Shown: piece after piece, positions 13,301 through 55,252 of the stretch
Position numbering within the stretch: position 1 is the stretch's first letter
How the letters are laid out: the number at the start of each line of letters is the position of its first letter
Assembly (NCBI GenBank): GCA_001247695.2
Contig: LGRX02034390.1
Span: 1-64,000 of the forward strand
Direction of reading: 5' to 3'
DNA length: 64,000 nucleotides
From: Cymbomonas tetramitiformis
Taxonomy: Eukaryota; Chlorophyta; Pyramimonadophyceae; Pyramimonadales; Pyramimonadaceae
Position numbers and translations under genes: made by a program
Notes under the pieces: model-generated
The model's input: the letters and a program-made list of their open reading frames with translations, nothing else
The model's database searches: none
Told to the model about the DNA's origin: nothing

Positions 13301-16300
13301 TCCCATAGCAGGCAGGCATGACTGTCCGCAAGAGGCCAGTAGGTGAGGTCCATACCGGCTGTCTCCAGGAGAGCACGGGAGACCGACGAGATCTTACCAA
13401 TCACATATTCAGCCATGAAGTTCTGCCAGTGCAGGGTGGGTGACGACTGCAGGTGTTTGATGCCATGGTGTTTGTACAGAGCCTGTGCTGCAGGGTCACA
13501 CAGCTCCGGGGCACAATCAGTGCGGAGAACCAGGCCAGTGCAGGCAAAGCCGTGATGAACAACATCTGCCAGGAACTGAGCCAGGACGAAGCTGTATGCC
13601 GACTTCTCAGCAGAGAAGTAGCAAAGTGTAAACCTCACAGTGAACTCCACAAAGGTCCAGCGGTACCTCGACCCGTCATAGCCAATAGGCGTGATCGGGC
13701 CTGTAGCATCAGCAGCCCACATAGATCCAGGCTTCTGAGCCCTGTATCTGTCAGCCGGAGGGTGCTTCGGGCTCGGCTGCACTGTCCGCATACGGGCACA
13801 CACAGCACAGGCCTCAGCACAGGTCCTGTGAGCCAGCAGCTGCTCCCGAGTAACTGTAGTGCCAGGTCGGGCGATGTCAACACCAAGGTCCATGAGCTGA
13901 GCCAGCCTGAGACCATGAGCATGAGCATATGCGGAATGGCACCACCTCTCAGGGGTGAACCTCATGGATGTGTACTGATCACGGTAGATGATAGCCACCG
14001 GGAACGGGGTGCCAGCAATGAAGACACGGTCCCCCCCGCCCTCCGAGCCAGCCGACTGAAGGGGCCGTCCAGCATAGGTGTGCTCACGACGGTAGCTGAA
14101 TATGCCCTCTGTGCCAGCTGGGTACACATGTAGCACCTCCCAATGAATAAGGTGCTGCCTGAAGGTACTGAGGTGTGACTGGGGGATCAAGAAGAGGAAT
14201 ACCGTGTGCTCGGGGTCGGTTGCAAAGTCCCGGTTGGCCTTCTTGAGCATCCGCTCACAGGTGAGTCTGTCAAAGGGCGGGTTGCCATATATATAGGCAC
14301 CGGCCCAGAGGTGACCCCAGCAGGAATCAGATAGTGAATACCTGACTGGGCAGGTCTGGTTGTTACCCACGCCGGGGGGGAGGTCGTCTCCGAAGAGGGA
14401 GATGTCAAAGTTGTGTTCCCCGGTTTTGGCCAAGGCAGCAGGCGAGCCCTTCAGGAAAGCCCACTTGGCATACTCTGAGCGTGCCCACATCCAGTCACAG
14501 ATCTCACCGGTGCGGACACGTGAGACAGTCTGGGTGAGTGCACTGGCTGCCCCCTCAGGGACCTCCGCCCACATATAGTCTGTGCCAGAGTCAATGATCC
14601 GATAGACACGGCCAGTAGGCAGGTGGGTGTAGGTGAGGGATACAAGGTCAGGGGACCCGAAGCCGAGGGATAGCATAACCCGAGAAGACAGCAGAGTGCG
14701 GCAGCCGGCCTTATAGTGTGAGTTTGGGAGAACGAAGTGGTCGATGGCGCCGTCCTGGACACAGACCCCATACAGGTGGAATGTCACAGTAGCATCCGTC
14801 CTGTGAGACCCAGCCGTGACCATGGTGAAGGCCACCGTACGGGTGTAGTCCACGTCGGTGCAGGCCGACAGGTCCCCGCACATGACACATGTGGCTCCAG
14901 AGTCACACACGATGCCTCTGTCAACCCGGACGGGTGCAGGGACAGCACTGGCCAGAGAACTGAATCCAGAAGCAGCCCACTCCTCGTCGGGCACATGCAA
15001 CGGAACTGACTCTGCACTGCCATAAACCAGAATACCAGTATAGCCAGCAGGTACCAGAGGGTAAACCACTGTAACTGACCCAAGCTGACCAGACAGTACA
15101 CCAAGCTCCACAGAAGCATAAGTACCCACAGCATAACCAGAGACCAGACATAAGCCGGTATCACCGGTAGCCAGTCCATCAGCTGAGAAAAGCTGACCAG
15201 CAGAACGGCCGACGGACCCCCCTGCTGGCGGGGTAAGCTGACTGACTGACTGACTGACTGACTGTCTGACTGACTGCCGCAGACCCAGAGAATACCCAAA
15301 CAGTAGTGCCGAGGTACACAGGGCCAGGCCACAGATAACCAGAATAGCAGTCCAGACCGGTGAGGAGCGGCGAGAGGTACGGGGCTCACCCGCCGGAGGC
15401 TGGGTTGTTGAGGGCTGGTGCCCGCCCGTCGGTGACTGGCGGTTGACAAGGTGTCGCCAGGTGCGTACGGGAGTCCTGGCACCAACGGCAGGAAGACAGG
15501 CCGAGATAGCCAGACCCCAGGTGACAGCATGCCAAAGCACCAGAGCCCGTGGGTGCACCTCCAGCACAGCACCGGAGGCACCACCAGACTGCACCGCATC
15601 TGCCGTGCCAGAGAATGCTAGAATGCACAGCAGACTCATGTACATGTAGTGACCCGCCCCATAGGGCCTGCGGCCCGGGCCACCCGGACCCCTGGGTCGG
15701 GACGGTGGTGCCGTGCTCACCAGCTGCACAGCTCCAGGGAATTCGTTGTTGGTTGTTGTGATTTGCACGTCGGCTGCCGGCACCGCTGGCTGCTGCGGCT
15801 CAACACTGAAGTGCTGCATAGACATGGCAGGGTCCGAAGGCTGGTGCACGGCAACATGGAGCTGAGCAGGCGTCATCTCACCGTCGGGTCCGTCCCCATC
15901 GCCAGGGTCCTGGTACGAGTTGAAGCGGTTGACTGCGTCATAGTACTGCTCCTCCGAGCGGCCACATGAGTCCCAGATAGCCCACTCCGACTCAGTCCAC
16001 TGCTCCCCACTGTCAACGGCAGAGTGCGGCACCACGGCAGCCGCCTGGGCCGCGGGGATGTCAAGCGGTGCCTCCCCGAGCTCCAATGAGTAAGTGTACA
16101 GGCATGACTCATACACCTCCTCCTCCGGATCGAGGAAAGCCGCATCCAACTCTGATAGGATGTCTGCAATGGGCGTGCCCTCGGGGTGGAACCCCGCCAC
16201 ATGAGCACTCTGCACGCCTCCAGGGCAGTCACGGCGGAAGTGAGGGCCGCCGCAGTCCCAGCACTGGACCGAGTGGCGGCCCTGTGCATCTCGCGTCACC

Positions 16301-17583: not shown

Positions 17584-18240
17584 GGCAGCCGTAAGCGAAG
17601 CACCGGCGCGATGAAACCCTAACGATAAGGGCGAGCCCCCCTCAAGGAAGGGGCCAAATCTGAAATAAATTCAAAATCTGCTCCGATGCCCACGAAACTC
17701 GGCAACACGGCCGGGATTGGCGAAGTAAAAATACTGTCCAAAGGAAAATGTCTGAGCCCAACTACTCCGTAAGTTATAAGCGTCCAAAAACGGCCAAGTC
17801 GCCCGCAAGATTACAAAATCCGCTCAATATACACAAACAAGCGGCAAGCGTGGCGAATTAAGGTAAAATGTCACGGGTAAAGACGCATAGAGTTGCGAGG
17901 AAAGATGCGGAGCGGCGGGGGTGGGCGGAAAGTAGGAGTGGGAGGTCGAGGTCCTTGCGCTTGTCGATGTCCGAGGTCATGGTCCGTTTAACGTGTCGCG
18001 ATCCACTTGGTACCAAACTCTGCGCAAAGCTGCATACAATCGGGGGCCCCAGCGCTCTCTGACCCATCTTCTCCGTACTCTCCTCCGCCACTCGTCGCGC
18101 TTACCTCTCCATCCACGCAGTCAGTTGTGCCGCGAAAACACGGCACCCCGCAACATTCTACCTACTCAGCCACGCTCGCCCCTCTACAGCTTTAGCCAGC
18201 CATTTAGTGGCTTTGAATCAAAACCACTTTAGGCAAGTGG
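17584..18240 (-). other. Copia-1 untranslated leader
   Basis: About 650 bp between primer site and Gag start. It contains no convincing ORF in element sense. Packaging and dimerisation signals would be expected here but cannot be read off. Confidence 0.6.
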
Positions 18241-38797: not shown

Positions 38798-39413
38798 GTA
38801 CAAGCGCTCATCTGAAATTTGGGGGTAGAAAATCGCAACGGAGCCGCGGGATCGAAAATTCAGGGTTTCGGCCTCAGGGTATTAATTTTCGTGGCTGCAA
38901 AAATCAAAATTTGCGCCCGGGGTCTTTTCAGACCTATTGACATGCTTCTAAGGAAGCATACTGGTAGGTCCATGCTGCTCAGTTGTTGTTTCCTAACAAG
39001 AACTGAGCCAATCTCTCAGATCAGGTGAGATTTGTCTCGCTCACACCCCCGAACGCTCAATCGAGCATCCGGTATACCCCACTCGCTCACGGGGTATATC
39101 GGATGAGTGCAATCGATGCGCAAAAGCCTCAGCATTCCATTTCTGCTTTACTTTTGTTGATGCGGTAAGCGAGGTGAAAGTTATTCTTGCGAATCACCTT
39201 GCGAATCAGCTTTTGCGTGAAAACACATACTCCCGCAACCGGGCGCAAGTTGCCCGCTTGAGTGGAATCTGAAAATGTGAAGAATGCGTTAGCGGATCCT
39301 CAGATTGTTGGTACCTACTTGGTACCAACAGTCTTACGAATGTTGTTCTATGCATGCATATGCTTAGTATCATGTTTTTTGTGCAATATACACGGTCAAC
39401 CACAGGCAGTAAG

Positions 39414-39828
39414 TAGGAAAACTGTGGACTCTGAGACAGTGTTAAAGACAGAGAGCTCAAAAGACAAATTCAATGACTGTATGACAGTATGACAGTATGA
39501 CAGTATGACAGTATAACAGTATGACAGAGTACAGTACTATGTGTAAAGGTGAACAGAACAATGATGACAATGAGATTACAAGAGACAGAAGATCAATTCA
39601 AAATGGATACAGTATCTGTCACAAGAACACAAGAGTACTAGTACGAGTATAGAAGTAGCTATGACTGAGTAACAGTGAGCACTGGAACAGTGCTATGTGA
39701 TATAAGCACTGTGTGTAACGAACAAACACTCTTATCAGTTTAAATCAATCAACAGTGTGTGTGTGTATGAGTGTGTGTTCGTACACTTTCTACTAGATAT
39801 ATGAAGTTAGTAGAAGTTGATTATCCTA
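39414..39828 (+). repeat. Copia-2 5' LTR
   Basis: 415 bp, containing five ATGACAGT-type octamers in tandem (39481-39520) and a GT-rich stretch near 39750-39775. Confidence 0.95.
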
Positions 39829-39839
39829 GGTTATGGGCC
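39829..39839 (+). promoter_or_regulatory. Copia-2 primer binding site
   Basis: GGTTATGGGCC directly after the LTR. This is the exact complement of GGCCCATAACC, the anticodon arm of initiator tRNA-Met (anticodon CAT), as in Drosophila copia half-tRNA priming. Confidence 0.8.
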
Positions 39840-39872: not shown

Positions 39873-42800
39873 ATGGCGGACGCGGGGAAAGGAAAGTATC
39901 CTACGCGGGAATCGCAGCTTCAGGAATTGGTAGAGCAGCAGGCTAGTTTTATGAAATCTATGGAAGCAACAATTCAGGCTTTGATTTCAGAGAAGAAGGA
40001 GCCTGGGAAATCGACAGAGAATGAAGAAGCTGCGTCGGGTGCAATGAGCACTGCCAACGCACAGAAGACAGTTCAGTGCGTTGTGAAGTTGTTGGGTACG
40101 ACGAAGTACACGGGTACAGAGAGGAATCAGTATGAGTCCTGGGTACAATTTAAGACACAGTTAGAGTCAGCAGTCACGTTTTATCCTGAGCTGCTGGAAC
40201 TAGTGTGCGACTATCAAGTGTCAGATATTGCAGATATCAAAGGACTGGACTTGTATATGCCTAAATCGAGAGGACATGGCAACACGGCTGCGAAGGAGAA
40301 GTCGTCATCATGGGCAGAAGACAAGCCTGCGTCACAGGCAGAGGACGAGGACGTTTTTGAAGAGGTCTTTGACGACAGCGGCAGTTATATTACTGTGCCT
40401 GGTTCTGCGAGTATGGCCAGTACAATTTTGTCAGCTATTTTGAAGCAGGTGACAGCTGGGGACGCCTTTGACGTTGTACGACGCTGTGGTAATGACGGGT
40501 TGAAGGCGTTCAGGAAGCTGAAGTGCAAAGTGGAGCCGCAGCTGTTTGGTCAACTCGCGGGCTCAATGAAGAAGCTATGCAAGCTGTCGGTGAACGCCAA
40601 TGAGGACCCGGTGAAGCAGTTGGGATATTTTGGTGACGTTATGTGCTCAGTGGCCAACTATGGGGGTGCGAAGCTTGACCCGACAACTGTCGAGGTGCTG
40701 GTGACTGCTCTGGCTGTTGCGGCTATGCCTATAGAGTATTCGCAGGTGGTTGCGGATATCAGTAAGGAACGACGTCCTTCGTTTGATATGCTTATGCAGA
40801 GGTCTGAGTATTTTTATGTGAATGTCGTACAGCAATCGGCGGTTCATTCATCGAGTATTGTGGGAGCTACTGTGGACGAGGAGACTGTTGCAGTGGCAAG
40901 AGCACTGGTTGCGGACAGAAGGAGGCAGAGCGAGGAGAAGAGGTTCAATGACGGGAAGAAATTGATATGTCCTACGTGCTCTGGTGTACACTCTGCAGAG
41001 AAGTGCTGGATAAGCAACCCGGCAGGTATGGAGGAGTTCATCAAGCTCAATCCTGCTAAGGAGAAAGGGGTTCGTGAGAACTATGCGCGGAGGCTGAAGA
41101 AAATCGCGGCGAAGAAGTCACCTGACGCGGTAGCAGCGACGGTGGAGAAACCTTCATCGAGTTCAGCGAGGTCGCGTCGTACGGAAGTTTCTGCGGAGGA
41201 GCTGTGGAGCTTGGAGAATCATGAAGAAGTTCATGTTGCCTGTCCGGTGGTCGCTACAGTGGCAAACCAGAAGGTAGTATACACTGGTGAGGTATTGGAG
41301 GACACCTGGGTGTACGGTGTGTACGACAGAGACAAGGAGAATGACGCACTGGTGCAGAATGAGTACTATGAGGACTCGGTGCATGAGGAAGACCTGTGTG
41401 CAGCAACTGTGGTGGACTCTGAGAGAGAGCTGTATTTTGATAGCATGGCCACGAGGTCTATTTTTAATGACCTGTCTATGTTTGAGGGCGCTCAGGTGAA
41501 CGCGTCATCAGCGGTGGCGTTCAAGGTCATGGCTGGAGAGGTGACGACGTCTCGTGGGGGAGGCCGTGGGTATATTACCTTGTGGAATCGGGTGACGAAG
41601 AAGGCTGACGTGCTGCTGGTGGAGGCGCAGTATGTGCCTGAGTCCCCCTTCAATCTGGTATCCGCGGTGAGCCTGGAGGACAAGTACGGTCTGTATGCAC
41701 AGTTTGGGGACCGTGTACTGAAGGACAAGAAGAATCTGTGCGAGTACGACGTCTGCAGGAAGGGGAACGTGTATGTTTTACCTGAGGTTGTCGTACAGGA
41801 GGCTGCGCTGCCGGGGGTGGAGTGCGGCAAGAAGAAGAGTAGTCCGGTGAGGGACAAGTGCAACTGGAAGTTCACCGAGTTCCAGAGGTGGAACATTGAG
41901 AAGGGGCCCTTTCATCTGGATATGTGTGCTGACGAGCACAATCGGCAGGTGAGCGAGTACTACTCGTTGGTGAACTCGGTGTTTCTTCATTGTCTGACGG
42001 GACGAAGCTTCTGGGGTAATCCACCGTACGACGATATGTTCATTGAGAGACTGCTGACCAAGATACTCATGGACTTTCCTAAGGACCCCGTGAACACGAA
42101 GTTTATGCTTGTGGTGCCGTACAAGCCAAATGCTGCGTGGTGGAGTCTGACGACGAAGTTTGAGGAGTTGCATGTATACTCGAAGGGCAGCGTGATATTC
42201 TCAGCGAGAACGGATCAGTGCTATAACGTGTCTGAGCTGGAGGAGTCCGAGCCTGGTCGTGTGTTTATCCAGGGGACTCCGTGGCCAGTGGTTGTGCTGT
42301 ATCTTGATCAGTATGTGGTCCCGAGGGTGGACGTGAAGGTTGTTGCACATCTCAGACTTGGTCATGCTTGTGACAAGTATGTGGAGGTCATGGACCTTCA
42401 GGGGTTGGACCTTGGGGTCAACTCTGAGGAATTGAGGAACAGCAATGTACTGAGCTGTTCGGTGAACTGTATGGCGTGCCAGGTGGCGGCGCCGAAGAGG
42501 CCATCACAGACGACAGATAGGGGAAGGGTCCCGAAGTCTGTACGGAAGGTGGTGGACAAGAGGGAGGTGTCTGTCAAGATGGGGCAGCTGACGTTCACTG
42601 ACCATGGTGGACCATTCGTGGCATCTACAAAAGGTTATCGTGGGTACACTATCCACGTGGATGACTTTTCAGACGTGTGTCACTTCTATGTATGGAGACA
42701 AAAGCTGGAGTATGTCGACGCTCTGGAGGACTATCGCAAAATGGTGAGGGCGACTGGGCGAGTGTTCCTTCAGGAGGAGACTCGTGTTGAGCAGGTGGTG

Positions 42801-45431
42801 TACGACTTGGACGTGCTGGTGTTGCACTCCGACAATGACTCTACTATCGTGTCTGGAAAGACCAAGAAGTACTGTGAGGACAATGCTATTGTGCAGAGGA
42901 CGACGTCACCGTACTTGCACGAGAACAATGCCAGGGCGGAGACCATGAACAAGTTTCTGCAGACGAAGGCGAGGGCTATGTTGGCGACTGCTGGTTTGCC
43001 CGCGACTATGTGGCCTTTGGCAATGAGGCACGCTGTGTACCTTATCAATCGACTTTGCAAGGCTGGGCTGGGTATGCAGTCCAGCTTGCAGGTGCTGAAC
43101 CAGAAGTACGATCTGTCTGTGCTACGAGTGTTTGGTTGTCGTGCGTATGCTTTCATCGACGCGAGCCTGCGTTCCAAACTGGCTGATCGGGCTACTCCCT
43201 TGATCTACGTGGGACACGAAGAGCGATCTACGGCTTATCTGCTATACAGCCAGGACAAGGAGAAGGTGGTCAGAAGTGGTATGGTCCGGTTTGACGAGCG
43301 CGTCGATCTGTATGGAAAGCTGGTGATGTCTTGGGATCCCTCTATGCTGACACCGTTGAGATCGTTGTACGACTGCGAGGCTCTGGATGGAAACTTCGTT
43401 ACAGCGTTTGGGGGTACAGCGACAGTGATACTGGAACTGCGTGCCTATGTGGAGCCAAAGGGTGATGAGTTCACTGGTGTAGTGAAGTTGAAAAGTGCTG
43501 GTGGAAGAACATTTTGGACACCGGTGAGTGTGTTTCTGGAAGCACGGGTGGAGCATCTTGAGCTGCTGTTTGAGTTTCGTGTGAAGTTGTCAGTGAACTC
43601 ATTCTATCCTTTGTTTGAGAAGGTGGTATTGCAGCAGTCAGGAGGAGGTGAATGGGAGGCAGCAGTGGTGTGTGCTACGGCACGAGAGGATCACGTGTTG
43701 CCGTATCAGGTGATACTGGAACGTCATGCTGGAGTGAGTGGCTCGGCAGTTGATGTGTGTGAGGCTCGAGTGAGGTTTGAGAATCGTCATGTTGCTTTGG
43801 CAGCTCGTGAGGAGAAATTGACGGGGTTGCCAGTTGGAGTGACCGAGCCGAAAGGATGGGTTCAGTTGTTGAAGGGACCTGACGCAGTGCAGTGGCAGGA
43901 GTCAGATCACAAGGAGGAGTGTGCTCTTATTGACGTGAAGAAGGCAATCGAGCCGGTGGAGTCGGTACCGGCTGGTGAGAAGGTAATGCGCATGACAGCT
44001 GTGTACAAAGTGAAGCTGGACTCTGCTGGAGAGGTGACTGAGAGGAAGACCAGATGGGTGGTGTGTGGTAATGGTCAGCAGCATGGGGTGCACTATGAGG
44101 ACGTGTATGCCCCGTGTACACAGTTGTCAACGTTGAGAATTCTTATTCAGCTCAGTCTGGTGTTGGGACTATTGGTGTTTGCTCTGGACGTCATCACCTG
44201 CTTTTTGAACGGCGAGCTGGACGTGGATACTCCTATGTATGTCAGCTGGCCTAATGCACGGACAGTACGGGGAGTACTGTATGGAATTTTGCAGAAGAGT
44301 GTGTACGGCTTGAAACAGGCACCACGCATTTGGTACAAGACGAGCAAGAACTTTCTGCTGGCTTATGACAGCAGGCTCCGGGTGTCCAACATTGACCCGT
44401 GTCTCTTTTACATCTGGCAGCATGGTACACTGGTGGTGTTTGTGTACGTACATGTGGACGACTACACTGTGTTCACTTCATCAGTGGAGTGGAAGGTGGA
44501 ATTCTTCAGAGCATTCAGTGAGAAGTATCCGAGTAAGGACAAGGGCCCGTTGGTGGAGTTGCTGGGCATGAGTATGACTTTCAGTGACTATGGTCTTGTC
44601 AGGGAGTGTCAAATCAGTCAGGTTGGGCTGATACAGCGTATGCTGGAGAGGTATTCTATGCAGGACTGCAATCCGTGTTTGACACCTATGGAGCCCAGAC
44701 TGTCTTTGTTGCCTGTGGACTCGGAGGAGAAGTTGGAGAAGCTTCCTTATATCAACCTGGTGATGGAACTGATGTGGCTGGCACGTTGCTCACGGCCTGA
44801 TATTCTGACAGCAGTCTGTTATTTGGCCAGGTTCTCTCACTGCTATGGGCAAGAGCATTGGCAGCATTTGAAACGTGTGCTGAGATATTTGAAAGGAACT
44901 GTTCATGTTTGCTTGACTTTGCAGTGCAGTTCGCCAGCTTCACTGACTGCTGAGTTGATAGTGACAGCTTATACAGACGCGGACCATGCTGCAGATAAAG
45001 TGACCAGGCGCTCTGTTACAGGTTCATTGGTGCGTCTGAATGGGAGCACTGTCATGTATTCGTCAAAGTTGCAGAAGACAGTTGCAGTGAGCACAGCAGA
45101 GGCAGAATTGATAGCGCTGTCAGAATGTGCACGGGACGTAGAGTATGTTGTCAATCTGTTGGCAGAATTTTCGCCTGTCAAGCAACCTGTCACAATTCAT
45201 GGAGATAATCATGCTTCGGTGGCACAGGCAGAGAATGTTCTGAACAATGCAGCGACACGTCACGTGGCAGTGAGAAATCGATATGTGGCAAAGTTGGTAG
45301 AGCTGGGCAGAGTTGTTATTGCAAAAGTGCCTACGAAGGAGAATTTGGCAGACTTCTTTACCAAAAGTCTAGCTTTGGACCGTTTTCAGGTACTCAGTGC
45401 TGTGGTATTGAGATATTTTCGAAGAGCATGA
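39873..45431 (+). CDS. Copia-2 Gag-Pol polyprotein (1852 aa)
   Basis: Starts at the ATG 44 bases after the 5' LTR. Domains: Gag with an N-terminal coiled coil (about 10-50), shortened zinc knuckle C-X2-C-X3-H-X4-C (about 366-378), aspartic protease at about 520-620 with DSMAT where D-S/T-G is expected, Dam-like methyltransferase module (about 663-812, D683 M C A D687, NPPY at 716-719, then LVVP and PWPVVVLYLD), integrase zinc motif (about 826-868), catalytic D/D/E (about 909, 986, 1021), RT with VDD (1528-1530), and RNase H from TDADHAADK (about 1700). Longer than typical Copia by roughly the methyltransferase-like module plus linkers. The protease Gly-to-Met change could impair it, although the rest of the ORF is intact. 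Confidence 0.95.
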   Translation: MADAGKGKYPTRESQLQELVEQQASFMKSMEATIQALISEKKEPGKSTENEEAASGAMSTANAQKTVQCVVKLLGTTKYTGTERNQYESWVQFKTQLESAVTFYPELLELVCDYQVSDIADIKGLDLYMPKSRGHGNTAAKEKSSSWAEDKPASQAEDEDVFEEVFDDSGSYITVPGSASMASTILSAILKQVTAGDAFDVVRRCGNDGLKAFRKLKCKVEPQLFGQLAGSMKKLCKLSVNANEDPVKQLGYFGDVMCSVANYGGAKLDPTTVEVLVTALAVAAMPIEYSQVVADISKERRPSFDMLMQRSEYFYVNVVQQSAVHSSSIVGATVDEETVAVARALVADRRRQSEEKRFNDGKKLICPTCSGVHSAEKCWISNPAGMEEFIKLNPAKEKGVRENYARRLKKIAAKKSPDAVAATVEKPSSSSARSRRTEVSAEELWSLENHEEVHVACPVVATVANQKVVYTGEVLEDTWVYGVYDRDKENDALVQNEYYEDSVHEEDLCAATVVDSERELYFDSMATRSIFNDLSMFEGAQVNASSAVAFKVMAGEVTTSRGGGRGYITLWNRVTKKADVLLVEAQYVPESPFNLVSAVSLEDKYGLYAQFGDRVLKDKKNLCEYDVCRKGNVYVLPEVVVQEAALPGVECGKKKSSPVRDKCNWKFTEFQRWNIEKGPFHLDMCADEHNRQVSEYYSLVNSVFLHCLTGRSFWGNPPYDDMFIERLLTKILMDFPKDPVNTKFMLVVPYKPNAAWWSLTTKFEELHVYSKGSVIFSARTDQCYNVSELEESEPGRVFIQGTPWPVVVLYLDQYVVPRVDVKVVAHLRLGHACDKYVEVMDLQGLDLGVNSEELRNSNVLSCSVNCMACQVAAPKRPSQTTDRGRVPKSVRKVVDKREVSVKMGQLTFTDHGGPFVASTKGYRGYTIHVDDFSDVCHFYVWRQKLEYVDALEDYRKMVRATGRVFLQEETRVEQVVYDLDVLVLHSDNDSTIVSGKTKKYCEDNAIVQRTTSPYLHENNARAETMNKFLQTKARAMLATAGLPATMWPLAMRHAVYLINRLCKAGLGMQSSLQVLNQKYDLSVLRVFGCRAYAFIDASLRSKLADRATPLIYVGHEERSTAYLLYSQDKEKVVRSGMVRFDERVDLYGKLVMSWDPSMLTPLRSLYDCEALDGNFVTAFGGTATVILELRAYVEPKGDEFTGVVKLKSAGGRTFWTPVSVFLEARVEHLELLFEFRVKLSVNSFYPLFEKVVLQQSGGGEWEAAVVCATAREDHVLPYQVILERHAGVSGSAVDVCEARVRFENRHVALAAREEKLTGLPVGVTEPKGWVQLLKGPDAVQWQESDHKEECALIDVKKAIEPVESVPAGEKVMRMTAVYKVKLDSAGEVTERKTRWVVCGNGQQHGVHYEDVYAPCTQLSTLRILIQLSLVLGLLVFALDVITCFLNGELDVDTPMYVSWPNARTVRGVLYGILQKSVYGLKQAPRIWYKTSKNFLLAYDSRLRVSNIDPCLFYIWQHGTLVVFVYVHVDDYTVFTSSVEWKVEFFRAFSEKYPSKDKGPLVELLGMSMTFSDYGLVRECQISQVGLIQRMLERYSMQDCNPCLTPMEPRLSLLPVDSEEKLEKLPYINLVMELMWLARCSRPDILTAVCYLARFSHCYGQEHWQHLKRVLRYLKGTVHVCLTLQCSSPASLTAELIVTAYTDADHAADKVTRRSVTGSLVRLNGSTVMYSSKLQKTVAVSTAEAELIALSECARDVEYVVNLLAEFSPVKQPVTIHGDNHASVAQAENVLNNAATRHVAVRNRYVAKLVELGRVVIAKVPTKENLADFFTKSLALDRFQVLSAVVLRYFRRA

Positions 45432-45442: not shown

Positions 45443-45857
45443 TAGGAAAACTGTGGACTCTGAGACAGTGTTAAAGACAGAGAGCTCAAAAGACAAATTC
45501 AATGACTGTATGACAGTATGACAGTATGACAGTATGACAGTATAACAGTATGACAGAGTACAGTACTATGTGTAAAGGTGAACAGAACAATGATGACAAT
45601 GAGATTACAAGAGACAGAAGATCAATTCAAAATGGATACAGTATCTGTCACAAGAACACAAGAGTACTAGTACGAGTATAGAAGTAGCTATGACTGAGTA
45701 ACAGTGAGCACTGGAACAGTGCTATGTGATATAAGCACTGTGTGTAACGAACAAACACTCTTATCAGTTTAAATCAATCAACAGTGTGTGTGTGTATGAG
45801 TGTGTGTTCGTACACTTTCTACTAGATATATGAAGTTAGTAGAAGTTGATTATCCTA
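45443..45857 (+). repeat. Copia-2 3' LTR
   Basis: 415 bp, identical by eye to 39414-39828. Confidence 0.95.
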
Positions 45858-46059
45858 GTAAGACCCCTCCCGTGAGTTCTGCAAAAGAGCAATGAACGCG
45901 AACGCTGCGAAGAAAAACCAGAACGGGTAAATCAGAAAAATCGAACGACTGAGATTTGCGATCCGCGATTTTCCGGGTTTCTGAACCGTTCCTCGATTTC
46001 GAGCTCCATTGCAGAAAAAAGGGCGATTCTCCGTCATAATTTCAGATGAGCGCTTGTAC

Positions 46060-49000
46060 TGTGCCCTTGCCCAGCAGGTGCGAGCGACCGCACCGACCAT
46101 GCATGGCCTTCGTTGTCGGCAGCCACTGGTGCCCTTCCGCCACACAGGAATTCATGAAGGCTTGTGAATTCGGCTGGTAGTTGCTCACCGTCTTGCTGCC
46201 CAATGCTGTCCCCTGCATCTGCACTGCCAGCTCCGTGAGGGAGCTGTCCCCCAGCTCCCCTATATCAAGATCCAGTGCTGCATCCTGAAGCGCCGCATCC
46301 CGGCCGCTCATCTCCTGCGCCGCTTCTGGGATCACCTCATACTTCTCCTTGCTTGCTCATGATTTGTCCAAGTCCTCTTTGTCTCCATCATCGTAGGCAG
46401 CATGGGTCAGACCGTTTGCCCGCCGGGTGTCGCCCACGCACGATGCTCGTGTACCAGGCGTCATCCACGGGCCAGTACACCTTCACCTTACTTGCAGCCT
46501 CGCACCAGCCCCGTCTGCGGAGTGTGCCCTGCTGCCGGCCTTCTTTGCTCCTGCATGTAATGGCTCACTGGGAGTCGGAGATGATTGTGGAACGAACATG
46601 GCGTTGTCCCAGCTTGAGGTCCCGAGCAGCTCGGAACCTCCCAGCCGGCTGGGAGTAAAGAGGTCTCTGCTCCTGGGCAGGATGACCACCTCGTCGGCCA
46701 GGGCCTCCAGCTGCTGAAACCACATCTGCCCAGGCCTACCTGCTGTAGGGCGCCACCACCGTGGCGGCACACCTTTCCTCCCACAGCGAGCTTGTGAGCC
46801 ACCTCATCGAGCAGTCACCACATACAGCGGGTTGACCTAATTGACTTCTCCTCGCCAGAAATATTAGCTAGATAGGCCAAATGAAGAGTCCACTCTCTCG
46901 CACCCCGGGTTGTACCACTGAGCGTAGTAACGAGGCAACTGGGCCGAGAGCTTGGAATGAAGCAAAGGGGTCCACTTGATTTGTGCCGATGCCACTCCCG
47001 CTCAGCCCACTGGAACCACCGTTGGTTCGGTTACCAATCGTTCAAGTCCCTGTCCCGAGATAACCGATCGGCCCACTTGCGATTAATTGTTTGCTCGCTT
47101 CTGATGTACCTCGCCTGCTGGAGCTCGATGTCGTTTTGGTCGAGGAGGATCCACAGGCACGGCATGCATGCATGCGTCACATCAGCTCTGGTTCTGCAAG
47201 GTGAAGTGCGTGGCTGCTGAGCATCGCCACCACCGACCGCCTGGTTGTCGTAGTACAGGCGCACCACCTTGCTGGTGAGCTCCCGCAGAAACGGATGCAC
47301 CATGCATCTTGTAGACGGCTTCCAGCTCGAGATTCGTGATGTACATACAGGTGGTCCGACCACAACCCCCTACCTTGCCGCATGTTTCGTTCAAATTCGT
47401 TCAGCACCTACCCCGCCCCACAATAGGCAGGAGTGGGTGTGCACCTTTGTCCTCGTGGGGCTGCGCCAGTTCTTGCGACCGTTCCTCCGGCTATGCTGAT
47501 GAGCCGGCCTGAGCTACCAGCCACTGGATGTCGCTCCGCGCCTGCCGTGTGATGAGCTTCACCTTCGTGCCCCATCCCCGCTTGGTGGAGATCACAAAGT
47601 GCAGCTCTCTGGGATATAATCTCACCGGAGGAACTGCCAGATACTCTATCTACTGACTGGCAGAGCGCCGAGAACGCTGCAAGCTTCCGGGCTGGCAGCC
47701 ACCGCCGCTGCCTCGACGCCTCGCTGAGAAGCTAGCGCCTTGGCCTGCACATATATAGATGAATCTTCTGCCATCTCGCCGGCGTCACGCGGAACTGTCC
47801 CGCCTTCCCGAAGTCCAGCCACCGACCTCCAGCCTGCTGAGGTGCTCCATCGGCTGCGTCGGCTCCCATTATTGCCCTTTCGTGCGTAGGGGAGCACCCT
47901 TGCCCCTGCTGGGGCTCGCTCCTCGCGCACGCATCCTCCAGCTCGGTCGTCTGCAAACTTCCCAACGCCGGCGCACCTTGCTTCCGCTTTGCAGCTTCCG
48001 CACCTCTCGCATCTGCCGTGGATCGCGGAGAGCAAATAAAGGCATTCCATGAGTACCTTCATCACCTTGCCAAAAATGCGAGGGGAATCGTTGCATCCAA
48101 ATGGAAGGCGCCGAACTGGAATAACTCGACCGCACGTCCAACTGCTGCATGTACTCCTGGAAGGCGGGGTCGATCCCCACGACGTGGTACCCATCCTGGA
48201 GGTCAAAACTGAAGCACCAGTCGTCCGGCTTGGCGAGCCGTCGCAGCTTCTTCAGGGTCTCCATCTTGCAGCGTGACTTCACACATACAGTGGGCGTTCA
48301 ACCAGCGGAAGTCCATCGATCACAAGACGCCATTTGTTCGTCCACGCACGGCTTCGGCACCAGAAACGAACACCCTGGAAATAAACATGTCGTCGTCTAT
48401 TCGCTCGCTCGCACCCATGCGCCTGTCTTGAGATACCGACCGCTCGGTCTCTGCAGCCATACATCCACTCCAGCTGCGGAGGGGTGGCGTTGGCCAGGGA
48501 CACTCAATGATCAAAAGGCAGAGGCGCCTTGACAACCCAGCGCATCTTGATTGGGCCCTATATATGCTGATGATCCAGCCACTGCATCACCTCTGATTTT
48601 GTGCCAGCCGCATGTCATGCCCCCCTGCTGCTTCGCACCCTTTATTTCCTGGCGGGTGGATGGGCTCCTTTTGTTGGAAGCCCTGAGGGGCGGAACGAAG
48701 GCGCCCAACAATTTTCTGAATGGAAATTTGGCTGGGTCTGGGCGTGGGCGCCGCGCTAAAGCCCTGACCCTTTGCCGCCCCTCCCATTACCGCGCCCGCC
48801 TTCACCTTTGCCAGCTCCAACGCCTTTGCCTCTCCTTGAAGGTCTCGAAAACTCGAATTCTTGGCGCTGGCCTTGGCGTGCGTGTTCATCACAGCTTTCA
48901 CCTTCTGGTTGTCGAATTCCTTCAACCGCTTGGTGAGGACTGAGTCGATCATCACGAGCCCGTCAGTCCGTCCCAGCCTACACCTGCCTTCTCCTCGATG

Positions 49001-50839: not shown

Positions 50840-52207
50840 TCACTGTGACCATGTTAACCAAGCGAAGTAGTAGTCCATGTCTGTGTCCCTCAGAGCTGTC
50901 GGGTCGATGTAGTGCTGCACTGCCGAAGAGAACTGTGACCAGCCTCCCAGGAAGCACACTTTCTCCATTGTAACACCCACAGCTCGAGCACACGTCGTGG
51001 CACCCTTCCGGGTGCTGTGTGCAGAAAAGTGACCTCCTTCCGGAGGTCTGCAGTCCAGCTCGTTGAGAGCCAGACCAATCCAGTCATTCACCACGGAAGC
51101 CTTGAAGCTCTTCGGGTCCTCGGGTAGCAGCCAGTTGGCGTCAGGTTGAGTCTTCTCAGAACTGTTCCAAGCCGTGTCACGGTGGAACTCCCAGTGCTCG
51201 ATCAGCTCCTTCAACAGAGCCACCCCCTTCCAGGGGATGCACAGGCGTCTCTTCAACAGTTGATGCCGCCGTCCTTTCTCCTTCAGCAGCACCACTGAGA
51301 ACTCACTGTCGCCACAATGAACGTGCTGCCGTGACAACGAGGTCCCCGTGTCCGGTCTGCCGAAGGTCACGAAGGCCACAACCACGTGGGCGAAGGCTCG
51401 CAGTAGCTGCATCTCCTCAGGCGATCTCGGAGTCAAACTCAGCGCTGCTTCGTGCACACGTCGTACGTGTGTCGCTGGCAGCCACGTCCGCTGGGTCTCG
51501 ATGTTCTCCTCCTGCACCGCCAGCTCCGCCTGGATGGTCGCCATCCCCTTCACAGCTCGGGTCACAGAACGCCCCTTCGCTGGTCCAGGAAAACGTAGGT
51601 CCTCGTGGTAGTTGTTGATGGCAGACAGGTACGGCTGCAAGGAGGTCGACTTGATGCCCCCGTCCTTCAACAGAGAGGCGATGTACAGCAACACCGTCGC
51701 CTCCGATGCTGGCAGCCACGGCCGTTGGTGCAGCTCACAAAATAAAATGAAGCGCTGCGCCTTCGGTCCGTAGTTGCCCATTGTCGTGTCCAGCAGTGCC
51801 TTTCTCTGCATCGTCACTGCCAGTTCCGTGAGCTGGGAAGGTCCCAACTCACCCCTCCACCGCTCACAAAGTGAGCGCGTGAGGAAATTTTGTACAACAC
51901 CACCGCGCTTGTACTCTTCGTAGTTGCCTCCGCTGCTCCGCTCGGTGTTCTCGCCGTCCGCGTCCGTTGCCTCGTCCGTGCTGTTGATGATTTTGAAGTT
52001 CTCCTCGGACAAGTCCAGCGTTTCCTCGTCGCCGTCGTCGTACAGCACGTGCGCCTTCCCGTCCTCGTTGAACTCCTTCATCACACCCGGGTAGAAGCAG
52101 CCATCGTCCTTCCAGAACACCTCGATTTTCGTACCCACGGTCACCTTGCTTGCTGTCGTACTCGTAGCAGAGCTTCTTCGTACTTCAGCAGCGTAGTAAC
52201 TCACGGG
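50840..52207 (-). CDS. PAT tyrosine recombinase with N-terminal Tudor-like module (about 454 aa)
   Basis: The open frame begins in the overlap with the upstream stop (CCC-GTG-A). There is no suitable ATG before the Tudor-like part, so -1 frameshifting or reinitiation is likely. The frame stays open to 53527, but upstream of 52207 it is only antisense-like noise over the RT-RNase H region. The Tudor-like module follows soon after the start (VGTKIEVFWKDDGCFYPGVM, then VLYDDGDEETLDL). The SAM-like N-terminal recombinase part has LTELAVTMQ and WLPASEATVLLYIASLL. The catalytic part has the first Arg in FGRPDTG, HSTR of the H-x-x-R box, GGW, and Tyr in HYIDPTA near 50910. It would join circular element DNA to the genome without an integrase. 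The relic copy shares the architecture. Confidence 0.85.
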   Translation of the reverse strand, partial: PVSYYAAEVRRSSATSTTASKVTVGTKIEVFWKDDGCFYPGVMKEFNEDGKAHVLYDDGDEETLDLSEENFKIINSTDEATDADGENTERSSGGNYEEYKRGGVVQNFLTRSLCERWRGELGPSQLTELAVTMQRKALLDTTMGNYGPKAQRFILFCELHQRPWLPASEATVLLYIASLLKDGGIKSTSLQPYLSAINNYHEDLRFPGPAKGRSVTRAVKGMATIQAELAVQEENIETQRTWLPATHVRRVHEAALSLTPRSPEEMQLLRAFAHVVVAFVTFGRPDTGTSLSRQHVHCGDSEFSVVLLKEKGRRHQLLKRRLCIPWKGVALLKELIEHWEFHRDTAWNSSEKTQPDANWLLPEDPKSFKASVVNDWIGLALNELDCRPPEGGHFSAHSTRKGATTCARAVGVTMEKVCFLGGWSQFSSAVQHYIDPTALRDTDMDYYFAWLTWSQ

Positions 52208-53325
52208 CGCGCCTCGATGAAGAACATCACAGCGTCCCACTTCGAGGGCCCGAGCAGCTCGGACCCTCCCAGCCTGCTCGGAGTGAACAGGTCCCTGCGC
52301 CGTGGCATGATCACCACCTCGGTGGCCAGGGCCTCCAGCTCTCTGAACCAGGACTGTCCCGGCCAGTACGGAGCCACCACCGTAGCAGCGGCCCCCTCCT
52401 CCCGCAGCTTGTGCGCCACCTCGTCCAGCAGCGCCCACGGGGGGTTCACCCAATTGTTCTCCCCCCGCCAGTCGTACGTCAGAGAGTCCACACCTTCGCA
52501 CTTCGGGTCCTTCCACGCAGCGTAGTACCGAGGAAGCTGCGCGGAGATCTCGGAAGCGAACCGGTCGACTGTGTAGGGCCCCCACTGCTTGTTGGCCCAC
52601 ACGAACCAGTCCCGATTCAGCCGCCAGTCGTCCAAATCCTCGCAACGCGAAAGGTTGTCGGCCCACACGTTGGCCTCGCTGCGGATGTACCGAGCCTGCA
52701 ACTCGATGTCGTGCAGATCCAGTAGCAGCCAGCGTCTCCGCATTCTCCTCATCAGGTCCGGGTTTCTGGATGTGAAGTGTGACAGCATCGCCACCACCGC
52801 CTGGTTGTCGCCGTAGAGCCGTACGACCTTGCCCTCCAGCTCCTGCAGGAACGCCTGTACGGTCTTGTACACGGCCTCCAGCTCCAGGTGTGTAATGTGC
52901 CAGCTGCGCATCTCGTCTGGCCAGAAACCTCGCGCGGGGAACTTCAGGTTCAGCACTCCTCCAAAGGCTGTCATCGAAGAGTCCGTGTGCACCTTCGCTC
53001 TCGTCGGGGATCTCCAGATCTTGCGCCCGTTCCACCTGCTCATCACAGGCAGCCTGGACCACCATTCTAAGTCCCCCCGAGCTGCACGCGAGATTTTTAC
53101 CTTCGCTCCCCAGCTGCGTTTCTCTGCCAGCACGAAGTAGAGCTCCCGCGCCGCTGGTACCGCCAAGTACACGGATTGGCAGAGTCCCGTGAAGGAAGCC
53201 AGTCTCCTGGCAGGAATCCACCTCCGATTTCTCGCTGCGTCGCACAGGATCTCCTTCGCCTTGGTGTGGATCTTGTGTACCCGTCGTTTTGTTACACGGA
53301 ATTGTCCCAGCGTCAGGTCCACCTC
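52201..53325 (-). CDS. PAT RNase H and methyltransferase-like region
   Basis: Continues RT in another frame from LEVDLTLGQFRVTKRR to the stop at 52201-52203. RNase H motifs: VHTDSSMTAFGG, HLELEAVYK, RLYGDNQAVV and ARYIRSEANVWADNLSR. It is followed by a Dam-like methyltransferase module with the segment YTVDRFASE, NPPW (near 52440), VVAPYWPGQSWF and MPRRRDLFTPSRLGG. This RT-RNase H-MT order is the normal one for DIRS-type elements. The frame extends upstream to 54258, but that half is noise over the RT frame. Confidence 0.8.
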   Translation of the reverse strand, partial: EVDLTLGQFRVTKRRVHKIHTKAKEILCDAARNRRWIPARRLASFTGLCQSVYLAVPAARELYFVLAEKRSWGAKVKISRAARGDLEWWSRLPVMSRWNGRKIWRSPTRAKVHTDSSMTAFGGVLNLKFPARGFWPDEMRSWHITHLELEAVYKTVQAFLQELEGKVVRLYGDNQAVVAMLSHFTSRNPDLMRRMRRRWLLLDLHDIELQARYIRSEANVWADNLSRCEDLDDWRLNRDWFVWANKQWGPYTVDRFASEISAQLPRYYAAWKDPKCEGVDSLTYDWRGENNWVNPPWALLDEVAHKLREEGAAATVVAPYWPGQSWFRELEALATEVVIMPRRRDLFTPSRLGGSELLGPSKWDAVMFFIEARP

Positions 53326-54251
53326 CAGCCGAGGTGCTCCACCACCTGCGTAGGCTCCCATTGGCCCTTCTTCTCGTTCCGCCGTAGGCCAAGTCGATGA
53401 AGCACCAGTTGAATTTTTTCTCGACGCAGAAAGCCTTCTCGCTGAGAGTCGACCAGCACCAGAAAATCGTCCATGTACGGTAGTACTCGCATTCCGCTGT
53501 GACGGTTCGCGTCCCCGCCAGCACCACCGGTCCTGCGACGGACTGACCATCGCTGTCGTACTGCGGAACCGTCCCGCAGCCTCCTGATTTCTCTGCGATC
53601 CTCCGCTGCCTGTGGAGAACGTAAAGCCTCCACCATCACGCGTACGAACTTGCAGAACACTCTCGGAGCGTCGCTCCATCCGAACGGCATCGCTGAACAT
53701 TGAAGCAGGTCCCCTTGCAGGTCGAACTGCATGAATCGCTGAAAGTCCGGGTGGATCCCCAGCGCATGAAACCCGTCCTGGAGGTCGAAGCTGAAGCACC
53801 AGTCGCCCGGTTTCGCCAGTCTCCTTAGTTTCGTCAGCGTCTCCATCTTCACACGATTCTTCACACACCACTGGTTCAGCCATCGGAAGTCCACCACCAG
53901 TCTCCACTTGTTCGTACCCGGTTTTGGCACTAAAAAAGCGCGAGAAACGTGAGATCTTCTCGTCGCTCTCGTCCAGGCACCGTTCTCCAGCAGCCTCTCC
54001 TTCTCCGCGTCCAGCCACACCTGCTGCTGCCGCGTAGCATCCCTCAGTGACACCCCGTGGTCGAACGGAGGCGGAGGCTTGCGCTTCCACCTCAACTTCA
54101 CCCCGTGAGTAATCCATTGCATCACCTCGGAACTGGCGCCCGCCGCGCGCCATGCTCCCCTCCGCTGTCTCACCTGCTGTTGCACGGTGAGTTTTCCCCG
54201 CCCAGCGCCCGGAGAGGGCTGTTGCGCTGGACGGGGTGGCGGCACGCACAT
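53313..54251 (-). CDS. PAT reverse transcriptase
   Basis: The ATG at 54251 overlaps the gag stop as TGATG, a typical stop-restart junction. About 312 codons. RT motifs: AFLVPKPGTNKWRLVVDFRW, WCFSFDLQDGFHALGI, CSAMPFGWSDAPRVF, and the catalytic YMDD in VLPYMDDFLVLV, then VVEHLGW. It then hits a stop at 53313, where the RNase H frame takes over one base back. CTCGGCTGG is not a classic slippery site, so a one-base loss is as likely as programmed frameshifting. It copies element RNA within the particle. Confidence 0.85.
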   Translation of the reverse strand: MCVPPPRPAQQPSPGAGRGKLTVQQQVRQRRGAWRAAGASSEVMQWITHGVKLRWKRKPPPPFDHGVSLRDATRQQQVWLDAEKERLLENGAWTRATRRSHVSRAFLVPKPGTNKWRLVVDFRWLNQWCVKNRVKMETLTKLRRLAKPGDWCFSFDLQDGFHALGIHPDFQRFMQFDLQGDLLQCSAMPFGWSDAPRVFCKFVRVMVEALRSPQAAEDRREIRRLRDGSAVRQRWSVRRRTGGAGGDANRHSGMRVLPYMDDFLVLVDSQREGFLRREKIQLVLHRLGLRRNEKKGQWEPTQVVEHLGWRWT

Positions 54252-55252
54252 CACACATCGGCCGCGGGCTTTCCGCCCCGGCCCTTGCCGCCTTTTTCGG
54301 TAGGCTTCTTAGCGTCCTTCTCCTCCTTGTTCTTACGCTCCTTCCAGCGCAGTTCTCGGTCCCGCGGATTCACCACCCGCGTTTCCGCGTTCGCCGCGTT
54401 CTTCGCCGTCATGCTCAGCATCGCCTTGCCGCGGTTCTTGTCAAAGTCGTTCAGCCACTGCTGCAACACCTCATCTGCCACCACGCCGTCTGCTGCCTGG
54501 TAGACTCTGTCCTCCACGAACTGCAGCTTTGCGCGTAGAGCGTCCGATCCTCCCCGTTGTGAAGAACCAGGCTCCTGCTCCAGCTGCCCGCGCAGTTCCA
54601 GCATCGTCCAACGGTTGCACAGCAACGCGTACACACCGTGCACCGAGTTGGTCACCGCGTGGAAACGTTTCTGCCACTCGATCTTCGTCAGTCCGCAGTC
54701 CTCGTTCACGTCCAACGTCTTGTTGCACTCGTCCACCACGTCGTGCAAATAAGACAGCGCTGGAGCCAGAACCATGCACTCGTACTTCATCGAAGAGTTG
54801 GACTTCTTGGAGAGCGCGTCGTACGTCTTGCTGCCGTGCAGGTCGTACAACTGCGGCATCCTCGATGTCAGTGTAGCCGGCCGCGGTGGGAACGGGTTGA
54901 CCGAGGCTGCTGGCACGTACTCCAGCTTCCTCCTTCTCTCCAGAAGTTGCTCGGCGGTCTTGGCTGCGGAGTCCGGGTCAGAAGTCCCAGGCTTCGCTGC
55001 CACCTTCGCCTCCAACTCAACGTTGATCTGTGCTTGACGTTGAAGCTCATTACGCAGCAGGCGATGCTCCTCTGCCTGCTGCCTCTGCATCTCAAGCAGC
55101 TCCCCTTGCTGCTTTTGCATTGTCAGAATTTGTTGCATCAGCACGTCCTGAGTGGACGGTGCTGCCGGGGAAGGGGAAGCCTGCCCGATGTCTGGCTTCC
55201 CCGGGAGGGGAGGGAATTCCTCTGTAGACTTTCCCTTCGAAGTTCCAGCCAT
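54251..55252 (-). CDS. PAT Gag-like protein (333 aa)
   Basis: Starts at an ATG at 55252. N-terminus Ser/Pro-rich, then a Gln-rich coiled coil (about residues 37-85, MQKQQGELLEMQRQQAEEHR). The central conserved block MPQLYDLHGSKTYDALSKKS is shared with the relic copy. The C-terminus is Lys/Glu-rich and strongly charged. No zinc knuckle is present. By position and conservation it is the capsid-type protein of the element. Confidence 0.8.
   Translation of the reverse strand: MAGTSKGKSTEEFPPLPGKPDIGQASPSPAAPSTQDVLMQQILTMQKQQGELLEMQRQQAEEHRLLRNELQRQAQINVELEAKVAAKPGTSDPDSAAKTAEQLLERRRKLEYVPAASVNPFPPRPATLTSRMPQLYDLHGSKTYDALSKKSNSSMKYECMVLAPALSYLHDVVDECNKTLDVNEDCGLTKIEWQKRFHAVTNSVHGVYALLCNRWTMLELRGQLEQEPGSSQRGGSDALRAKLQFVEDRVYQAADGVVADEVLQQWLNDFDKNRGKAMLSMTAKNAANAETRVVNPRDRELRWKERKNKEEKDAKKPTEKGGKGRGGKPAADV

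Follow-up and report, generated by a model that had tools for sequence, protein, structure and literature searches.

The window, that is, the whole stretch of 64 kb of DNA of the green alga Cymbomonas tetramitiformis that was analysed, contains three Dam-like domains: one in each of the retroelements Copia-1 and Copia-2 and one in a DIRS-like ORF of 722 amino acids (aa). Copia-2 lies on the forward (+) strand and is built up as follows:

39409..39413, no strand: target-site duplication GTAAG, left copy, read from the sequence and equal to 45858-45862
39414..39828, +: 5' LTR, 415 bp, ends TAGGA...CCTA, identical to 45443-45857
39829..39839, +: putative primer binding site GGTTATGGGCC, read from the sequence
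39873..45431, +: Copia-2 Gag-Pol ORF, 1852 aa, stop-free, with Pfam domains
40968..41006, +: gag motif CPTCSGVHSAEKC, residues 366-378, read from the translation, a CCHC-type zinc knuckle by its motif
41433..41684, +: protease region, residues 521-604, Pol_BBD (PF22936) at 17.3 bits, below the Pfam cut-off of 27; presumably protease, by its position and DSMA motif
41859..42332, +: Dam-like N6-adenine methyltransferase domain, residues 663-820 (PF05869, PHROG 111, TIGR01712 below its cut-off, hhalign, own HMM)
41916..41933, +: motif I-like LDMCAD, residues 682-687, from the translation
42018..42029, +: motif IV NPPY, residues 716-719, from the translation
42348..42650, +: integrase zinc-binding region, starting with HLRLGH, residue 826 onwards, read from the translation
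42651..42914, +: integrase core, rve (PF00665), residues 927-1014, 21.1 bits, below the cut-off of 32.6; D, D and E read by eye
43098..43304, +: SH3-like domain (SH3_retrovirus, PF25597), residues 1076-1144, Pfam, above cut-off
43962..44693, +: reverse transcriptase (RT), RVT_2 (PF07727), residues 1364-1607, Pfam E 4e-32, above cut-off
44730..45428, +: RNase H region, residues 1620-1852, assigned from its motifs and location, with no Pfam match
45443..45857, +: 3' LTR, identical to the 5' LTR
45858..45862, no strand: target-site duplication GTAAG, right copy, equal to the left copy

Copia-2 belongs to the Ty1/Copia type, as its RVT_2 domain is located downstream of the integrase (rve below cut-off) and the element has identical LTRs of 415 bp and a 5-bp duplication. 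It does not qualify as a DIRS element: a PF00589 recombinase is absent from its Pfam list, and rve and Pol_BBD are present, both below their cut-offs. Using blastn, the maximal repeat containing the LTR was found to span 39412-39829 (418 bp). The putative primer binding site GGTTATGGGCC presumably resembles the half-tRNA-iMet site of Drosophila copia. The domain gag_pre-integrase (PF13976) was seen weakly in the relative P0021 (16.8 bits, cut-off 28.4). The Dam region is 100% identical to that of C. tetramitiformis protein P0002. Copia-2 is an intact, recently copied element. LTRs usually end in TG...CA; those of Copia-2 read TAGGA...CCTA. Downstream of the element, a short ORF on the minus strand (47646-48206) resembles, by eye, a fragment of a retroelement RT.

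The initial annotation had proposed a Dam-like module between the protease and the integrase zinc motif, and this is borne out by the profile comparison with methyltransferases, in which a significant match was obtained. A stretch of 186 aa (residues 651-836, window 41823-42380) matched PF05869 with 36.1 bits (E 6.8e-9; gathering cut-off 28.1), and the whole Copia-2 ORF also scored above this cut-off (30.6 bits, E 3.2e-7). The same stretch matched PHROG 111, "DNA methyltransferase" (E 1.8e-6), and the phage N6A methylase model TIGR01712, the sole NCBIfam model listed (E 2.8e-6), albeit with 27 bits against an equivalog cut-off of 97.05. Of 50,697 records in a phage collection, 57 were matched by tblastn (E up to 1; best E 5e-4); every one of the 15 matches listed was annotated as an adenine- or DNA-methyltransferase, two of them at E 0.6-0.7. 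When PF05869 was used to search 14 control genomes, E. coli alone was positive. An hhalign comparison of five Copia Dams with 16 Dams from viral contigs gave a probability of 98.9% over 87 columns, motifs I and IV included. These viral proteins came from IMG/VR, in which 102 of 242 candidate stretches encoded relatives; 80 were kept, 42 of these 80 extracted and 16 used, the patterns for fetching having been drawn from the retroelement alignment. Our own HMM scored the Copia-2 domain at 168.6 bits, the sequence having been part of its training set. For the C-terminal third of the domain, the support consists of our own alignment and our own HMM. A search of solved structures by sequence with the Copia-2 domain returned unrelated weak matches only. 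When the entire Gypsy protein P0054 was compared with the phages, 27 records matched, and of the five listed, two were annotated as adenine methylases and three as hypothetical proteins.

A chance motif match was ruled out by the PF05869, phage tblastn and hhalign results. Judged from its sequence, the segment of residues 663-820 between the protease region and the integrase is a homologue of Dam (PF05869). The individual elements described earlier were recovered in the translation: DMCAD at 683-687, NPPY at 716-719 and, following NPPY in this order, FMLVVP, a Trp-Trp pair, GSVIFSA and PWPVVVLYLD. The location given for the module (41860..42310) was right, and its boundaries had been drawn slightly too narrowly; the domain extends over about 41859-42332.

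Motif IV of the Dam family reads [DN]PP[YF], with which the NPPY of Copia-2 agrees. In a motif alignment of 56 rows (the query and 55 proteins), this motif was present as NPPY (27 rows), NPPF (22) and NMPY (2), and once each as NVPY, -MPY, IPPY, NPLY and NGPW. Motif I has its acidic residue, D or E, in all aligned rows but P0015, P0020 and P0051, which lack this stretch or cannot be aligned over it; in Copia-B, E replaces D. Four proteins with N[MV]PY form a subfamily of Copia-A (P0016-P0018 with NMPY or NVPY; P0020 with "-MPY", its start being cut), of which P0018 stays below the Pfam Dam cut-off (22.7 of 28.1 bits). P0013 and P0014 are devoid of the C-terminal part of the domain. The T and P of a WxTP motif at the start of the domain are invariant in 16 of 16 viral-contig Dams. 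The motif is absent from the retroelement Dams in the rows covering the start, which carry DWK or a similar sequence; in Copia-2, it is replaced by WKFT. In related enzymes, WxTP contacts SAM.

Such deviations might be expected if the domain, though derived from Dam, had lost its methylating activity and been kept in the integration complex to bind nucleic acids or to act as a scaffold, for its contacts with DNA or the integrase, a reading that is possible, if somewhat unlikely. It would account for the missing WxTP of those retroelement rows that cover this site, for E instead of D in Copia-B and for the variants of motif IV, NMPY/NVPY (one subfamily) and NGPW (Gypsy protein P0056), but the retention of NPPY or NPPF in 49 of the 56 rows is difficult to explain without catalysis. 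Moreover, N[MV]PY need not mean a loss of activity, because the adenine methyltransferases KsgA and Erm carry NLPY or NIPY as motif IV.

The likeness of N[MV]PY to the motif IV of these rRNA enzymes also bears on the idea that the domain is an RNA N6-adenine methyltransferase acting on the genomic RNA or the tRNA primer of the element. As part of Gag-Pol, it would be packaged together with the RNA, and de Mendoza et al. discuss RNA as a target of the C5 enzymes borne by LINEs (PMC5890265). The significant profile matches, however, are to DNA enzymes, and PF12237, the RNA cap-enzyme family of PCIF1, was reached below cut-off by Copia-2 (E 0.13) and P0021 (E 0.027), so that an RNA enzyme is distinctly improbable; the match of Copia-2 to PF12237 was regarded as chance.

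The 186-aa stretch was used to search the 851.7-Mb assembly, in which the window is contig C24294, and the best-scoring 150 of 7173 candidates were scored. At 74 of these 150 places, the window's own included and with allelic contigs possibly counted twice, the stretch is encoded at full length with 100% identity, which excludes a single-copy oddity. It is free of stops at 149 of the 150 places, a sample biased toward intact copies because the best candidates were scored. Many copies are embedded in stop-free frames about 1860 aa long, which, together with the 74 identical places and with LTRs and target duplication in place, makes an assembly or annotation chimera practically excluded.

For the analysis of selection, dN/dS was estimated according to Nei-Gojobori between the window copy and five copies of 87-89% identity. 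The values were, in the order L047 to L051:

Dam: 0.139, 0.060, 0.055, 0.056, 0.061
Integrase: 0.081, 0.070, 0.055, 0.066, 0.067
RT: 0.117, 0.111, 0.070, 0.092, 0.088
Gag: 0.213, 0.196, 0.158, 0.150, 0.165
Linker (residues 1146-1360): 0.283, 0.278, 0.261, 0.229, 0.299

By bootstrapping, the interval of Dam was shown to overlap those of integrase and RT in all five pairs and to be clear of that of the linker in four of them. When copies were compared with one another, the Dam values of four pairs were 0.037, 0.046, 0.046 and 0.109. Three closer copies (L052-L054), which were left out of the bootstrap, gave 0.116, 0.152 and 0.050 on 1 to 3.5 replacement changes each. The Dam domain is under purifying selection, like integrase and RT. 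A decayed relic was rejected on dN/dS and bootstrap, and the more general notion of a functionless relic or passenger in one copy, contradicted by this selection and by the presence of the domain in three Copia lineages, is very improbable. All five compared copies (L047-L051) retain LD and NPPY, which also speaks against a domain that has ceased to methylate.

A second element of the window and the DIRS-like ORF provide the other two Dam-like domains, all on the minus (-) strand:

10393-17670, -: Copia-1 ORF, 2426 aa, with RVT_2, SH3 and rve (below cut-off), from Pfam
13969..14499, -: Copia-1 Dam-like domain, residues 1058-1234, NPPF, ahead of the integrase, own HMM 68.8 bits
52204..52635, -: third Dam-like domain of the window, at the C-terminus of the 722-aa ORF, NPPW, PF05869 28.7 bits on the piece, cut-off 28.1

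Pfam Dam gave no match in Copia-1, and TIGR01712 matched it below cut-off (E 0.017); in the tree, its Dam domain groups with those of Copia-2 with a support of 96/91. The flanks of Copia-1 share a 260-bp LTR-like repeat (99.6%). Between Copia-1 and Copia-2, Dam is the best conserved of six parts (identities: Dam 38.2%, RNase H 34.2%, RT 30.3%, protease 27.4%, linker 26.2% and integrase 25.3%). This is not always so, as the identities between Copia-2 and P0021 amount to 39.9% (Dam), 44.6% (integrase) and 41.4% (RT). P0021 is a member of Copia-B (P0021-P0053), of which the five members compared are 39-41% identical to Copia-2 in the Dam domain; in P0021 and P0035, Dam sits between Pol_BBD and rve. 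A genome search with RVT_2 yielded 2783 candidates, 150 of which were scored; two were read upstream, and both proved to be Copia-B with Dam. Among these two RVT_2 places, examined beyond those found through Dam, there was no Dam-free Copia. By homology, the Dam domain is present in three Copia lineages, one of them represented by another element of the same window.

Dam is also found in other retroelements of this genome. With PF05869, 7257 candidates were obtained and 150 scored; all 150 were above the cut-off, the lowest listed with 48.7 bits, and the Copia-2 copy of the window (36 bits) lies outside these 150. Eight places were fetched (L039-L046), and the ORFs of five were scanned with Pfam. 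The Gypsy polyprotein in L040 (L040:2063-9820, minus strand) is 2586 aa long and has the order protease, RT, RNase H, Dam (1585-1658), integrase zinc domain (1830-1887), rve (below cut-off), SH3 and chromodomain. As in Copia, its Dam is located ahead of the integrase zinc domain. L039, L045 and L046 contain, by reading, a Dam sequence of the L040 type. L043 is a DIRS element with RT-Dam followed by a recombinase ORF (PF00589 below cut-off), L044 contains RT (below cut-off) and Dam, and L041 and L042 contain Dam alone. The DIRS-like assignment of the 722-aa ORF in the window (52204-54369, minus strand) was made by reading; it has a weak RNase H match and, over its whole length, scores 25.5 bits with PF05869 (cut-off 28.1); its Dam-like domain scores 62.7 bits with our own HMM. 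Among the proteins, P0055 and P0056 carry a Dam-like stretch at their N-terminus, and PF05869 is absent from the precomputed list of P0056. One protein search returned three proteins, the query included. That Dam precedes the integrase both in Copia and in L040, the Gypsy element of Cymbomonas, would suit a scaffold in the integration complex, but in the Gypsy protein P0054 from ENA, Dam (92-201) precedes the protease (299-382), away from the integrase.

At its C-terminus, L040 has a stretch resembling C5-cytosine methylases (PF00145, 19.9 bits, cut-off 22; FSGTG, SPPC and ENP read by eye), and this Gypsy element possibly combines two DNA methylases of different chemistry. In the Cymbomonas genome paper, the word "copia" does not occur, and over-abundant scaffolds with homology to chromodomain, RNase H and cytosine methylase are described (PMC5741210); as described there, these would fit L040. 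The genome also has 62 matches to MT-A70, a count in which any host AMT1 is pooled with RNA enzymes and repeats. Many of them are equal or nearly equal in score and each occupy one open frame of about 284-308 aa, as would be expected if a repeat or virus carried another adenine methylase.

In a tree of 35 rows (16 viral-contig and 19 retroelement Dams), the two groups were separated with a support of 100/100; a tree of 33 rows gave the same picture. Within the retroelement clade, which also holds the DIRS and Gypsy Dams, all ten sampled Copia Dams fall into a single clade (100/100) and adjoin three Gypsy rows (92/91, short of the star of the program). Long branches were flagged, among the retroelements those of P0056, the DIRS-like ORF of the window, Copia-1 and L040, and the deeper branching among DIRS and Gypsy Dams is weakly supported. 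Because the Copia Dams form a single clade inside the retroelement clade, Dam was probably acquired once by Copia, from another retroelement, the direction being inferred; the source for the Copia ancestor would probably have been an element of the Gypsy or DIRS type. Insertion of a DIRS element into Copia was rejected, in view of the one open frame, the absence of a listed recombinase and the Copia-only clade.

Dam domains have been described before in DIRS elements (PMC3783388; PMC5890265; PMC6338049), of fungi and elsewhere (PMC3783388); papers of 2001 and 2004 are cited for this in these texts. Like the DIRS1-type elements with Dam (MT), Copia-2 has PF05869 inside Pol, and the DIRS-like and Copia Dams fall into one retroelement clade. 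DIRS Pol, in contrast, consists of RT-RH-Dam and a tyrosine recombinase, without protease or DDE integrase, whereas the Dam domain of Copia-2 lies between a protease region and a DDE integrase. We know of no demonstrated role for the Dam domains of DIRS elements. The phage N6-adenine methyltransferases (PF05869, TIGR01712, PHROG 111) are collinear with Copia Dam in GPFxLDxxAxxxN, NPPY, LIP and the following W region; they differ in being separate proteins (149-321 aa in the 16 viral-contig rows) with WxTP, while Copia Dam is part of a polyprotein and is devoid of WxTP.

DNA methylases of another family and specificity, the C5-cytosine enzymes, are likewise carried by retrotransposons, namely LINE and DIRS elements of Symbiodinium and Gypsy of Klebsormidium; according to the same paper, Symbiodinium Copia is without any DNMT (PMC5890265). 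Copia is also named for DNMT3 in a passage of another paper (PMC12344493). In the alga Ectocarpus, the DNA transposon Sola1 carries ParB and a predicted adenine/N4-cytosine methylase as accessory protein (PMC12477816); this is a separate gene of a DNA transposon, whereas the Copia-2 Dam is a polyprotein domain. Searches of open-access full texts brought up no report of an adenine methylase in Copia. The view in the initial annotation that such a domain is not standard in Copia pol agrees with these searches, but within this genome three Copia lineages as well as Gypsy and DIRS elements carry relatives. As far as the open-access texts searched go, Dam is known in DIRS, and what is new here is Dam inside Copia pol.

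The sequence data suggest that Copia-2 may place a chemical mark on the DNA that it produces. The reading that we prefer, and to which we give about an even chance of being correct, is that the domain represents a retroelement branch of the phage/bacterial Dam family, which was taken up once by the ancestor of at least three Copia lineages and has been kept, and which methylates adenines of the element's own cDNA. Dam would be made as part of Gag-Pol and packaged with RT and integrase; such co-translation would put it where the cDNA arises, beside the integrating enzyme, and there, in the particle or the pre-integration complex, it would act on the double-stranded cDNA. Methylation of cDNA adenines would be the simplest use of the domain, and methylation of cDNA has been argued for the C5 enzymes in DIRS Pol by de Mendoza et al. 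(PMC5890265). The likeliest benefit would be that new copies bear a mark read by the host as self or as permissive chromatin, or escape attack as foreign DNA; licensing of new copies by 6mA is a guess. Alternatively, the domain may protect the cDNA or act against DNA viruses, the latter having been proposed for the DAM and DCM domains of retroelements (PMC6338049).

In the prasinophytes Micromonas and Ostreococcus, 6mA marks the first nucleosomes or starts of active genes (PMC12695648). Because of this mark and of the MT-A70 genes in the genome, a host reader of 6mA is plausible. The same paper, in which Cymbomonas is not mentioned, reports that Trichomonas transposable elements are not enriched in 6mA and calls this consistent with other eukaryotes (PMC12695648), a finding that argues against elements being permanently marked by 6mA. 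A wider version of the cDNA reading, speculative and on balance unlikely, is that Copia, Gypsy and DIRS elements all write 6mA on their own cDNA before integration, thereby mimicking the mark of active genes and remaining unsilenced, with the enzyme as a self-imprinting module passed between superfamilies.

As Dam was apparently taken up once by another superfamily, is fixed ahead of the integrase and is selected as strictly as RT, its uptake, place and selection argue that it may serve retrotransposition itself. The question can be tested by long-read maps of 6mA, since a single algal genome harbours Dam in elements of the Copia, Gypsy and DIRS types, with many near-identical copies.
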